A stretch of 34,143 bases of DNA from an uncultured Meiothermus sp. (GTDB taxonomy: Bacteria > Deinococcota > Deinococci > Deinococcales > Thermaceae). This document shows, in pieces, positions 2,995-30,402 of the stretch. The notes below the pieces were generated by a model that saw nothing but the letters and a program-made list of their open reading frames with translations, made no database searches and was not told the origin of the DNA. The stretch's first letter is position 1, and every line of letters starts with the position of its first letter. The stretch spans positions 1-34,143 of the forward strand of contig CALFDH010000020.1 in the NCBI GenBank assembly GCA_937950405.1. The letters are read 5' to 3'. Made by a program: the position numbers and the translations under genes.

Positions 2995-3098
2995 CTACGT
3001 TGGAGTATAGCCGAAAAACTTGCTTTTTTTTGATGATTTGACCCCGGTTCCCTCTGGCACGGATAGCCAGACTATCTGCACTCCGTTCGCAATTGGTC

Positions 3099-3225
3099 AT
3101 ACCAGATTCGGTTGGTTCGTTACCGAATGGTAACGAACCAACCCGACCGAAGGGAGTGCTCTGGGATTCAAAAAGATAGCCCTGGGGGTTTTTGGTTTGG
3201 TGAAGTATCTTTTTGAATCCAGTAT
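3099..3225 (+). repeat. Palindromic MITE-like repeat, copy A (127 bp)
   Basis: Bounded by imperfect terminal inverted repeats ATACCAGATTC and GAATCCAGTAT. It contains two strong hairpins. The first has 15-bp perfect arms GGTTGGTTCGTTACC (3110-3124) and GGTAACGAACCAACC (3129-3143) with a GAAT loop. The second has 15-bp perfect arms GGATTCAAAAAGATA (3164-3178) and TATCTTTTTGAATCC (3206-3220) with a 27-nt loop. Nearly identical to copy C at 27745-27870. No transposase is encoded, so it is a candidate non-autonomous element or structured RNA. Confidence 0.85.
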
Positions 3226-3226
3226 C

Positions 3227-3424
3227 GCAACAGATTCGGTTAGTTCGTTACCCTTCGGCGGCGAACTAACCCGACCGGAGTTATCCGCGTAGCAAAGGGC
3301 GATACCGCTCCTTGGAAGAAAGACGTTTTTTTTCGCCGACCGAGGGGAGGGGTGTGCGCTAGGATTCAAAAAAGATAGCCCCCTGGGACTTTTGTTTTGT
3401 AAAGTATCCTATTAAACCCGGTAT
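3227..3424 (+). repeat. Palindromic MITE-like repeat, copy B (about 198 bp, diverged and expanded)
   Basis: Starts at CAGATTCGGTT and ends in ACCCGGTAT, directly after copy A. Hairpin 1 has arms GGTTAGTTCG and CGAACTAACC. The stretch AGACGTTTTTTTTCGCCGACC to GTGTGCGCT in the middle matches, on the opposite strand, the middle of copy D. The GATTCAAAAAAGATAG motif of hairpin 2 is kept, but its 3' partner (GTATCCTATTAAACC) has decayed. Confidence 0.7.
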
Positions 3425-3547
3425 CACAAACCCTTGGCTTCCTGCAGCTTTCGGCCTTTGGCAGTGTGTCTCCGCTTCTTTTGCGCATCAGAAATGGGCT
3501 TTATGGCGGTGTTGATGTTTTGCTCATTCGGTTCATCCCAGAGGCTC

Positions 3548-23201: not shown

Positions 23202-23463
23202 ATACCAGATTCAAAAAGTTAGTTAACACAACAAAAATTCAAGTGAGGCTGTCTTTTGTAAGTCCTATCACGCTCTTAACGACGTGCTGCCCACCCAGAG
23301 GCCACTGTTCTGTCCAGGATAAAGCTTTCTTGAACTCGGATGGCTCAAAATTTGTGACGAGCGCTCTGGAGCACACCCCTCTCTGATGGTCGGCGAAAAA
23401 AGCGTCTCCCCTGATTCTGGTTGGTTCATCCCCGACCAACGACAAACCAACCGAACCTGCTAT
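23202..23463 (-). repeat. Palindromic MITE-like repeat, copy D (262 bp, long form)
   Basis: Read on the minus strand it begins ATAGCAGGTTCGGTTGG and ends TTTTTGAATCTGGTAT, matching the two ends of copy A. Hairpin 1 survives as GGTTGGTT/AACCAACC (23419-23426 and 23445-23452). The central part shares CGCCGACC-type sequence with copy B, and 23313-23353 is shared with copy E. Its first base is the A of the TGA stop of the CBS-like gene. It fills most of the gap between that gene and pilT. Confidence 0.65.
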
Positions 23464-27484: not shown

Positions 27485-27744
27485 CTCTGGCAGAGTGTTG
27501 TGGAAATACCCACACACTTCTACAAGGTTCCAATAGCTACTGTATTGAAAGTCAAGCAGCCTGTGCAGGCATGGGCGGGGCTCTACAGAGGTCGTACAAA
27601 GCCGTTCAACCCCGCCTGAATCCCCCCTCCGCCGTAGGAAGCGACCAAAGGCGCGGGATGTGGTTTTGGTCAGATAACGTAAAACAGGCGGTCGGATAGC
27701 CGTCGAGTCTTGCCGCGATGAATGCATTGCACAAGCATGTGTAC

Positions 27745-27870
27745 TACCAGATTCGGTTAGTTCGTTACCGAATGGTGACGAACTAACCCGACCGAAGGAA
27801 GTGCTCTATGATTCAAAAAGATAGCCCCTGGGGTTTTTGGTTTGGTGAAGTATCTTTTTGAATCCGGTAT
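27745..27870 (+). repeat. Palindromic MITE-like repeat, copy C (126 bp)
   Basis: Near-identical to copy A over its whole length. Ends are TACCAGATTC and GAATCCGGTAT. Hairpin 1 arms are GGTTAGTTCGTTACC and GGTGACGAACTAACC, where the fifth pair is A-T instead of the G-C of copy A. Hairpin 2 keeps GATTCAAAAAGATA and TATCTTTTTGAATC exactly. It lies 43 bp upstream of the acyl-CoA synthetase start, and its right end contains TTGAAT. Confidence 0.85.
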
Positions 27871-27892
27871 ACGACCTACAGATAAACTGTAG
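27858..27892 (+). promoter_or_regulatory. Candidate acyl-CoA synthetase promoter with palindromic operator-like site
   Basis: TTGAAT (27858-27863, inside repeat copy C) and GATAAA (27881-27886) are 17 bp apart. The -10 is embedded in the palindrome CTACAG-ATAAA-CTGTAG (27876-27892), a plausible repressor site. The predicted start near 27893 leaves a 20-nt leader with GAGGTC as ribosome site before the ATG at 27914. Confidence 0.5.
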
Positions 27893-27913: not shown

Positions 27914-29839
27914 ATGAGCGAACCCATCTGGTTTCCATCGGACAACTACAAGCACGGCAGCCACATCGAAGCCTTGCTACGGCACCTGAACCTAGATAGC
28001 TACGAGGCGCTCTACGCCTTCAGCATCCAGCAGCCGGAGGCTTTCTGGGAGGCCACCTTACAGTTTCTGGGCATCGAGTGGTTTGTCCCCTACCATCAGG
28101 TATTGGATGTTTCGCAGGGGCCACAGTGGCCCCAGTGGTTTGTGGGGGGGCAGCTGAACCTGGCCTACAACGCCCTCCATCATGCCAAAACCCGGCCCCA
28201 CGACCAAGCCCTTATCTGGGAAGGGGAAGACGGTGCTGTGGTGAGGTTAAGTTATGGCGACCTCGAGGCCGCCGTAGCCCAGACAGCCCATGCGCTCAGG
28301 TCGCTAGGCATTGGCAAGGGCGACCGGGTAGGCCTCTTCCTGCCCATGCTGCCCGAGACCGCTATCAGCGCCCTGGCCCTGGCCCAGATCGGTGCGATTT
28401 TTGTACCTATCTTTTCTGGTTATGCCGCCGAGGCAGCGGCCACCCGCCTTCAGGATGCCGAGGCCAGGCTCATCATCACCGCCGATGGCTTTTACCGCCG
28501 GGGCAGCCAGGTCAAGCTATTGGACAACGCCCGCGCTGCTGCGGCGCTTTCACCCAGCGTGCAGCAGCTATTGGTGGTCCGCCGTTTTGGAAATGTGGCG
28601 CTAGCACCCAACGAGGTGGCCTGGGATCAAATCGTTCCGCAGCAACCCTCCAAAGCCCCTTACGAACCCATGGGCAGCATGGACCCCTTCATGCTGATCT
28701 ACACCTCAGGCACCACCGGCAAACCCAAGGGCACCGTGCACTACCACGCGGGTTTTCCCATCAAGGCCGCCCAGGACATGGCCCATCTCTTCGACCTGCA
28801 AAAGCACGAGACCCTGTTCTGGTTTACCGATATGGGCTGGATGATGGGCCCGTGGGCCATCCTGGGAGCCCTAACCATCGGAGGCACTGTGCTGCTCTAT
28901 GAAGGCGCCCCCGATTACCCCGATGCAAGCCGGCTATGGTCTATTTGTGAGCGGCACGGGGTCACCCACCTGGGCCTCTCCCCCACCCTGGTACGGGCCC
29001 TGATGCCCCTGGGCGACGAGCCCGTTCGCAAGCATGACTTGTCCAGGCTGCGGATGCTGGGCTCCACCGGCGAACCCTGGAACCTGGAGCCCTATCTGTG
29101 GTTTGCCAGAACCGTAGGTCAGAATCGCGTACCCATCATCAACTACTCCGGCGGTACCGAAATTGGCGGTGGCATCCTGGGCTGCACGGCCTGGCGGCCC
29201 ATCAAGCCCATGGGGTTCAACACCGCTGTTCCGGGCATGCACGCCGAGGTGCTGGACAGTACCGGACAGCCCGTGCGGGACGAGGTAGGTGAGCTGGCCG
29301 TGATGGGGCCGTGGCCCGGGCAGACCAAAGGTTTTTGGAAGGCCCCCGAGCGCTACCTGGACACCTATTGGAGCCGATTTGAAAACATCTGGGTGCATGG
29401 CGACTGGGCCATTCTGGATCGGGAGGGCCACTGGATGATCCAGGGACGCAGCGATGACACCCTCAAAATTGCCGGGAAGCGGGTGGGCCCCGCTGAATAC
29501 GAGAGCGCCGCTGTCGAGCACCCCGCAGTGAAGGAAGCTGCTGCCATTGGCATTCCCCATCCCGTCAAGGGCGAGGCTGCGGTGGTTTTTGTGGTGCTGC
29601 GGGCCGAGCACGCTCCGAGCAAGGAAATGGAACAGGCTATTGCAGAAACCATTGCCACTCGGCTGGGCAAAGCGCTCAAACCCGAAAAAATTCTTTTCGT
29701 CTCCGACCTGCCCAAAACCCGCAATGCCAAAGTGATGCGACGGGTGATTCGAGCCGCTTATCTGGGACAAAACCCTGGCGACCTGTCGGCCCTCGAGAAT
29801 CCACAAGCCGTGGAAGCCATCCAGAATTCCTCGAGGTGA
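27914..29839 (+). CDS. Acetyl/acetoacetyl-CoA-synthetase-like acyl-CoA ligase
   Basis: A 641-residue AMP-forming ligase that activates a short carboxylic acid to acyl-adenylate and then acyl-CoA. Landmarks: N-terminal ACS-type extension (residues 1-100), phosphate loop YTSGTTGKPKGTVHYHAGFP, the acyl-pocket segment WFTDMGWMMGPWAILG, NYSGGTEIGGGILGC (A5), the hinge in YWSRFENIWVHGDWAILDREGHWMIQGRSDDTLKIAGKRVGPAEYE, and KTRNAKVMRRVIRAAYLG with the catalytic, acetylatable-type lysine. ACS proteins usually read KTRSGKIMRR. The pocket differs from canonical Acs (WCTADVGWVTGH), so propionate, acetoacetate or another short acid is as likely as acetate. Repeat copies flank it on both sides. Start chosen for the GAGGTC ribosome site. 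Confidence 0.88.
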   Translation: MSEPIWFPSDNYKHGSHIEALLRHLNLDSYEALYAFSIQQPEAFWEATLQFLGIEWFVPYHQVLDVSQGPQWPQWFVGGQLNLAYNALHHAKTRPHDQALIWEGEDGAVVRLSYGDLEAAVAQTAHALRSLGIGKGDRVGLFLPMLPETAISALALAQIGAIFVPIFSGYAAEAAATRLQDAEARLIITADGFYRRGSQVKLLDNARAAAALSPSVQQLLVVRRFGNVALAPNEVAWDQIVPQQPSKAPYEPMGSMDPFMLIYTSGTTGKPKGTVHYHAGFPIKAAQDMAHLFDLQKHETLFWFTDMGWMMGPWAILGALTIGGTVLLYEGAPDYPDASRLWSICERHGVTHLGLSPTLVRALMPLGDEPVRKHDLSRLRMLGSTGEPWNLEPYLWFARTVGQNRVPIINYSGGTEIGGGILGCTAWRPIKPMGFNTAVPGMHAEVLDSTGQPVRDEVGELAVMGPWPGQTKGFWKAPERYLDTYWSRFENIWVHGDWAILDREGHWMIQGRSDDTLKIAGKRVGPAEYESAAVEHPAVKEAAAIGIPHPVKGEAAVVFVVLRAEHAPSKEMEQAIAETIATRLGKALKPEKILFVSDLPKTRNAKVMRRVIRAAYLGQNPGDLSALENPQAVEAIQNSSR

Positions 29840-30090
29840 CACCGGGTTCAAAAAGACAGTTGACAAAACCAAAAGCCCGCCAGATCGTCTTACAGCGCTC
29901 TTCACAGACGTGGCCGCCCGCGAAAACGAAAAAGTGCCTAGCCCAGACGCACATTACGCACTCGAGCGTGGTCCGGGTTCGGCCCACGGTTGCTCGGGTT
30001 TCGAGTTTCCAGGCGACCATCGTTGTATCCAGGACAAATCTTTCTTGCAATCGGATGGCTTGAATTTTATGAAAAGTGCACCATATAGCG
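29839..30090 (+). repeat. Palindromic-family repeat, copy E (about 250 bp, degenerate)
   Basis: Begins ACACCGGGTTCAAAAAGACAGTTGACAAAACC, resembling the plus-strand start of copy D (ATACCAGATTCAAAAAGTTAGTTAACACAAC). Positions 30027-30072 (ATCCAGGACAAATCTTTCTTG, then TCGGATGGCT) match copy D 23313-23353. Its first base is the last base of the acyl-CoA synthetase TGA stop. The middle has an unrelated insertion, and the far end cannot be fixed precisely. Confidence 0.5.
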
Positions 30091-30156: not shown

Positions 30157-30402
30157 CTACTGCTTGGCAGCCGCTTTCTTGGGAGCAGCCTTCTTCGCGG
30201 CAGGTTTCGCAGCGGCCTTGGCCGCAGGCTTGGCAGCGGCTTTTTTGGGAGCCGCTTTGGTCGCAGCCGGCTTGGCAGCAGACTTAGCGGTAGACTTCGC
30301 AGCAGCCTTGGCCGCAGGCTTGGCAGCAGGCTTCTTGGCTGCGGGTTTGGCGGCGGCTTTCTTGGCAGCAGGCTTCTTGGCGGTTTCTTGGTTTTCAGGC
30401 AT
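30157..30402 (-). CDS. Histone H1-like Ala/Lys/Pro-rich DNA-binding protein
   Basis: An 81-residue highly basic protein composed almost wholly of AAKP/KKAAAK repeats after a short acidic head, MPENQETAKKPAAKKAAAKP. No cysteine or aromatic residue is present. This composition matches the C-terminal tail of eukaryotic H1 and bacterial H1-like proteins (AlgP, HctB, Bacteroides/Chlamydia types), which coat or compact DNA. Expression should be strong: a near-perfect AAGGAGG ribosome site, a TATAAT -10, and an intrinsic terminator. The repeat makes the plus-strand complement read as an Ala-rich membrane-like ORF (84 aa), which is a shadow. Exact role unknown; the repeat number is likely to vary between strains. 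Confidence 0.85.
   Translation of the reverse strand: MPENQETAKKPAAKKAAAKPAAKKPAAKPAAKAAAKSTAKSAAKPAATKAAPKKAAAKPAAKAAAKPAAKKAAPKKAAAKQ

Follow-up and report, generated by a model that had tools for sequence, protein, structure and literature searches.

Copies in the window

The window, that is, the whole 34,143-nucleotide stretch of Meiothermus sp. DNA analysed here, carries several copies of a repeat family (family 1) whose basic unit is 125 bp long, has the form TACCRGATTC...GAATCYGGTA and contains two hairpins. Element A (3100–3224, plus strand) is a 125-bp short form consisting of modules M1 and M5 only, running from TACCAGATTC to GAATCCAGTA and preceded by its left target copy, TCA, at 3097–3099. 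Hairpin 1 of this element (3111–3142, plus strand) is made up of GGTTGGTTCGTTACC, a GAAT loop and GGTAACGAACCAACC, and hairpin 2 (3167–3217, plus strand; GATTCAAAAAGATA...TATCTTTTTGAATC) is continuous with the right terminal inverted repeat (TIR). Element B (3228–3423, plus strand) is a 196-bp long form comprising M1, a single M2, M3 and M5, in which the 38-bp M2 module with its two hairpins occupies positions 3281–3318 and M3 positions 3319–3343, both on the plus strand. Its left TIR is degraded to CAACAGATTC and its right flank is TCA (3424–3426). The two elements adjoin in the arrangement TCA-A-TCG-B-TCA, with one trinucleotide (the left TNA of B, now TCG) common to both. Element C (27745–27869, plus strand) is again a 125-bp short form, flanked by TAC at 27742–27744 and an identical TAC at 27870–27872; it starts 169 bp upstream, and ends 45 bp before, the ATG of an AMP-binding ORF at 27914. 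Elements A and C are 93% identical across 126 bp, and a covariance model of 28 copies, A and C both being in the training set, recovered them in the window with E-values of 1e-43 and 2e-42, respectively. Their GC contents are 46% (A) and 44% (C), against 59% for the window, the long element B being less AT-rich (51%).

Two further copies are composite. Element D (23203–23462, minus strand) is a long family-1 copy with flanks TTA and TCA, split by a MITE of a second family which is nested within it at a TA (23268–23366; flanks TA and TG). At E, only the right-end fragment of a family-1 element is present (29840–29878, minus strand); its TIR has two mismatches and its outer TGA (29837–29839) doubles as the stop codon for the ORF upstream. 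This fragment adjoins a long family-2 copy (~29893–30081, right limit approximate). The sequence-only reading had listed at least five copies, A to E, with ATACCRGATTC-type TIRs and lengths that varied through internal expansion. A, B and C are genuine and lie where it had placed them, but D and E are composites and E is incomplete. The TIR proper is TACCRGATTC, and the coordinates had been set one base too early since the outer A and T are part of the target copy. Length does vary through discrete 38/39-bp modules, but nesting of the second family also contributes; much of the extra length of D is therefore insertion, and internal expansion alone is not a correct account.

The second MITE family is about 105 bp long and has the form TA-KCGCGCTCTTCACA...TGTGAAGAGCGCTC-TA, with an inner hairpin GTGGCCGCC/GGCGGCCAC. 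Longer variants reach about 190 bp, dozens of copies occur in the host genome (L031–L072), and the target appears to be TA.

Module architecture

The architecture of family 1 is M1-M2n-M3-M4n-M5. M1 consists of the left TIR and a hairpin of 14–15 bp, and M5 comprises the right hairpin, the outer arm of which continues into the right TIR. To these the longer copies add M2 (TTATCCGCGTAGCGGAGGGCGATACCGCCCCTTGGAAG, 38 bp; zero to four in tandem), M3, and M4 (TGAAGGGCCATCGGCCCCCGGCTAGCGCCGGTACTCAAG, 39 bp; zero to six in tandem, with six in L298 of Allomeiothermus silvanus). The stepped lengths near 125, 157, 195, 234, 272 and 310 bp thus result from two-hairpin modules of 38/39 bp in tandem. All 77 occurrences of M2 lie in the context of family 1. 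The modules may multiply by slippage or by unequal recombination, either following a transposition or in the interval between two of them, as has been described for boxB in pneumococcal BOX. They are presumably irrelevant to mobility, since the module-free 125-bp form is the most numerous.

M2 and M4 are unrelated in sequence and share one fold geometry, namely a 5-bp stem with a 3-nt loop followed by a 5-bp stem with a 4-nt loop, within 38 or 39 bp. Their folding z-scores are modest (-2.1 and -2.5). Perhaps the two modules are functional, interchangeable structural cassettes which have been gained and multiplied. The family would then be an independently evolved parallel to BOX, propelled by a branch of IS630 that duplicates 3 bp (TNA); we regard this as speculative and rather doubtful.

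One locus (L270, G006:C69:24145) holds a minimal TIR pair of about 30 bp (TGATACCGGATTCAAGCGGACCGAATCCGGTATTA), which may have arisen by internal deletion.

Copy number and distribution

The host genome assembly comprises 2.89 Mb in 237 contigs and is 86% complete. A blast search of it with element A gave 163 candidates, of which 40 were scored, almost all of them full-length. Allowing at most one mismatch, TIR ends numbered 209, against 8 for a reversed control pattern; exact TNA+TIR ends numbered 180, against none for the control, which corresponds to about 90 host elements with two perfect ends. Further copies, which the sequence-only reading had expected in the genome, are thus numerous, and its estimate of hundreds per genome is somewhat high for the host (~90–100) but close for M. 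hypogaeus (~175).

Blast matches were obtained in 20 of 50 Thermaceae genomes, belonging to the three genera Meiothermus, Allomeiothermus and Calidithermus. Exact TNA+TIR ends number 351 in M. hypogaeus (G007), 274 in G019, 203 in G003, 172 in G016, 170 in G005, 108 in G021 and 48 in G001, and several relatives of Meiothermus from hot springs each carry roughly 50 to 175 copies of the family. Named records containing it are those of M. hypogaeus, M. taiwanensis and Calidithermus chliarophilus, together with plasmids of A. silvanus and M. taiwanensis. No exact TNA+TIR ends occur in any of the 27 genomes of the sister genus g4, which we infer to be Thermus, nor in g5. Several genomes of the host genus have no or few copies, and this patchy spread resembles that of a mobile element. 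Host copies are 96–99% identical to the host consensus and those of other species at most 94%, so that each lineage has amplified its own set. Phage records gave no match to the family; a single-ended match in viral contigs (L317) was judged to be due to chance.

Although it reaches about 175 copies in a single genome and its host genera are well-studied thermophiles, the family is apparently undescribed in the literature searched. Some of the intergenic sequence is explained by it, as are, probably, some of the contig breaks in Meiothermus assemblies.

Target duplication and empty sites

The elements range from 125 to 481 bp and carry TACCRGATTC at both ends, which places them among TIR-bounded MITEs of less than 600 bp. 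Copies are multiple and dispersed, and the 125-bp form is too short for a transposase gene. Across all loci, 154 distinct elements have T at position -3 of the left flank in 95% of cases and A at -1 in 95%; at the mirror positions on the right, T is found in 94% and A in 90%. Among the 141 distinct elements with a TNA left flank, 106 have the identical TNA on both sides, against an expectation of 27% from base frequencies. Formally, TNA...TNA might equally be a 1-bp duplication between a fixed T and A. The exceptions are duplicated too, however, element C being flanked by TAC/TAC and one other copy by TAG/TAG, and only a 3-bp duplication fits these. A search for target-site duplications, one of the checks that had been proposed for the family, thus revealed a duplication of 3 bp that is almost always TNA.

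Another of these checks, for empty sites in sister genomes, identified sites with a single TNA. The joined flanks of host copies, with the trinucleotide counted once, aligned without gaps to G013 or G007 for L006 (TTA), L003 (TGA) and L002 (TCA), and those of L008 to G013 and G016, where the site itself carries substitutions; at L005, the fifth copy compared, the site is poorly conserved. The L008 copy lies at the start codon of a gene, where the ATG is regenerated from the terminal A of the element and the duplicated TGA. At L056 a family-1 copy with TGA on both sides is situated within a family-2 copy, the reciprocal of the nesting of family 2 in D.

In the host genome two copies (L021 and L030) have similar flanks (ACCGGACTGCCG...TTATTCGGCAA), which suggests that their target was another repeat or a duplication.

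Probable mobilisation of the family

We propose, with a probability of roughly 0.78, that the family consists of non-autonomous DNA transposons (MITEs) which are moved in trans into TNA targets, putatively by an IS630-type enzyme. The suggestion from the sequence alone that the copies are MITE-like and mobilised in trans agrees with the TIRs, the 3-bp TNA duplication, the high copy number, the lack of coding capacity, the nesting and the empty sites. From established transposition biology, the combination of TIRs, a duplication of fixed 3-bp length and no gene of its own points to a DDE transposase acting in trans. A transposase made elsewhere would recognize the TACCRGATTC terminal inverted repeats and insert the element into a TNA trinucleotide, which would be duplicated in the process; the enzyme may belong to the IS630 (Tc1/mariner-like) group.

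Two groups of insertion sequences duplicate TNA in these genomes, an IS630-type with TACC... ends and an IS5/IS1031-type with GAG... ends. The former shares both the outer TACC and the TNA duplication with the MITE and is therefore favored; judging from these two features, an IS630-type transposase is probably the mobilizer. Identical TNA trinucleotides flank 9 of 10 Thermaceae IS630 records, which represent seven distinct sites. One of these, L225 in Calidithermus (TGA/TGA), interrupts a peptidase-like reading frame, which becomes continuous again when the IS and one of the two TGA copies are taken out. The Meiothermus copy in G005 has the ends TACCAAATC.../TACCAACC... and TCA/TCA, and Thermus plasmid copies have TACCC...GGGTA ends. 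These elements differ from the MITE in being autonomous and 1.08–1.13 kb long, and their TIRs continue with CCTTTC or AAATC/AACC rather than RGATTC. In none of the IS630 copies examined, a small sample, does RGATTC follow TACC, so the match to the MITE does not extend over the full TIR.

Mobilization by an IS5/IS1031-type transposase is an alternative that we consider unlikely. A 3-bp TNA duplication is the known rule for this group. IS1031-like elements with such duplications occur in the host genome (G000:C167; L161, TTA) and in its relatives (L152, TAA; L157, TGA), and the inner arm of the hairpin reads GAGGCTGTCTTTTTG in some of these, which over nine bases is similar to their IS1031-like GAGGCTGTCGTAAAAG ends. 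Against this, the IS5/IS1031-type termini begin with GAG and not TACC, and no examined IS5-type locus has TACCRGATTC ends around its transposase. It is scarcely credible that the copies are REP/BIME-type palindromes moved by RAYT (TnpA-REP). They are extragenic, palindromic and numerous, as that explanation would have it, but they consist of a 125-bp, two-hairpin unit, compared with 20–40 bp for REP. They are bounded by true TIRs and duplicate 3 bp of their target, and REPs moved by a Y1 single-strand transposase would leave no such duplication. For the family as a whole the TNA duplications refute it.

A more different proposal is that the repeats are now a structured RNA or regulatory element under selection (a BOX/BIME-like attenuator, stabilizer or terminator), with transposition confined to the past. 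Folding is strong, with z-scores of -5.3 and -7.8, one per strand. In hairpin 1 pairing is kept in 99% of cells, four pairs are changed on both sides among 28 copies, and none of 500 shuffles scored as high; the common geometry of M2 and M4 despite their different sequences also agrees with this proposal. The hairpins fold on both strands, however, as would any palindrome, and template switching alone can give paired changes. Those of hairpin 1, whose loops are often inverted (GAAT/ATTC), could reflect either selection or correction of the palindrome by template switching. The genomic context, counted for 121 copies with usable flanks and based on simple, crude ORF calls, also argues against such a role. 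After removal of the element, 27 of these copies lie within an ORF and 93 between genes. Relative to tandem flanking genes, 26 copies run in the same direction and 20 in the opposite one (p 0.46), so that a stranded RNA role is unsupported. Gaps between convergent genes, a location that spares promoters and the interior of mRNAs, are enriched (32 of 93, or 34%, versus 31 of 199, or 16%, in the background; p 0.0004). Some copies are located within genes or at their start (L006, L008), and between species the number varies patchily down to zero. This placement is a pattern of tolerated insertion and not that of a stranded RNA part, and we think the RNA proposal improbable.

For mobilization in trans, a parent IS with TACCRGATTC ends was sought among sampled PF13586 and PF01609 loci and was found around none of their transposases. 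PF13359 gave no matches, and neither did PF07592, which had none in the control genomes either, so that its negative result carries no weight. An apparent parent in G019 (L135), with 1.17 kb between TIRs, proved to be a MITE into which an IS1031-type IS had inserted. At L308 (A. silvanus, 3003480) 19 bp of the right end of the MITE directly adjoin a degenerate IS630 transposase; the flanks do not match and the locus was rejected as a parent. Searching with altered inner bases in the TIR pattern retrieved, for the most part, variants of the MITE and isolated matches in coding sequence.

The L308 arrangement is perhaps a recombination product or the relic of a parent. Two Thermus thermophilus plasmids (L320 and L322) carry one IS630-type IS, apparently at the same target site and in opposite orientation.

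Relation to known elements

In architecture, the closest known system is pneumococcal BOX. BOX elements of Streptococcus pneumoniae and S. suis have the structure boxA-boxBn-boxC, are TIR-bounded and hairpin-rich, occur in about 100 copies with reported target-site duplications, and have an ISSpn2-like enzyme as their proposed mover (PMC3049150). Like BOX, the present family is non-coding, has fixed outer modules around a unit of about 40 nt that is repeated in tandem a variable number of times, and nests with other MITEs. It differs in that two distinct inner modules (38 and 39 bp) are amplified, in its TNA duplication and in residing in an unrelated host phylum. The likeness is architectural only, and we do not claim a shared origin; as a second, unrelated BOX-like modular MITE, the family makes the origin of tandem inner modules open to comparison.

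RUP of pneumococcus has IS630-Spn1 as its partner. The Thermaceae family resembles this IS630-derived MITE as a short TIR-bounded element without a gene, putatively moved by an IS630-group enzyme. Unlike RUP-type MITEs, it duplicates 3 bp (TNA), the duplication usually given for IS630 being TA, and no partner IS with matching TIRs was found among the loci sampled. The IS630-type elements of Thermaceae described above are probably ISTth6 or a close relative. ISTth6 is listed as an IS630 element with a 2-bp repeat (PMC6352166); the copies described here duplicate TNA (3 bp), which, if they are indeed ISTth6, departs from that listing. In elements with TA at both start and end, a TA duplication is a possible misreading.

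The family had been called new-looking. No part of the window matched Rfam at the gathering score, and in the open-access literature we found no described MITE for Meiothermus or Thermus and no described repeat family to which it corresponds. The family is new, while its kind is already known.

Other repeats

Recurrent TNATACCAAATC ends, several of which continue as CCACATAAACTCCTTGCCTTCTCCCC, were encountered in several species (L008:2265, L032, L043, L049, L126, L142, L212 and L239). They probably belong to a third TACC/TNA repeat family, its ends being similar to those of the G005 IS630 element (TACCAAATCTATG); a simple search found no paired inverted ends for them. Strong direct repeats lie within a gene of the window (30157–30402, minus strand), which encodes a short lysine/alanine-repeat protein resembling histone H1-like DNA-binding proteins.
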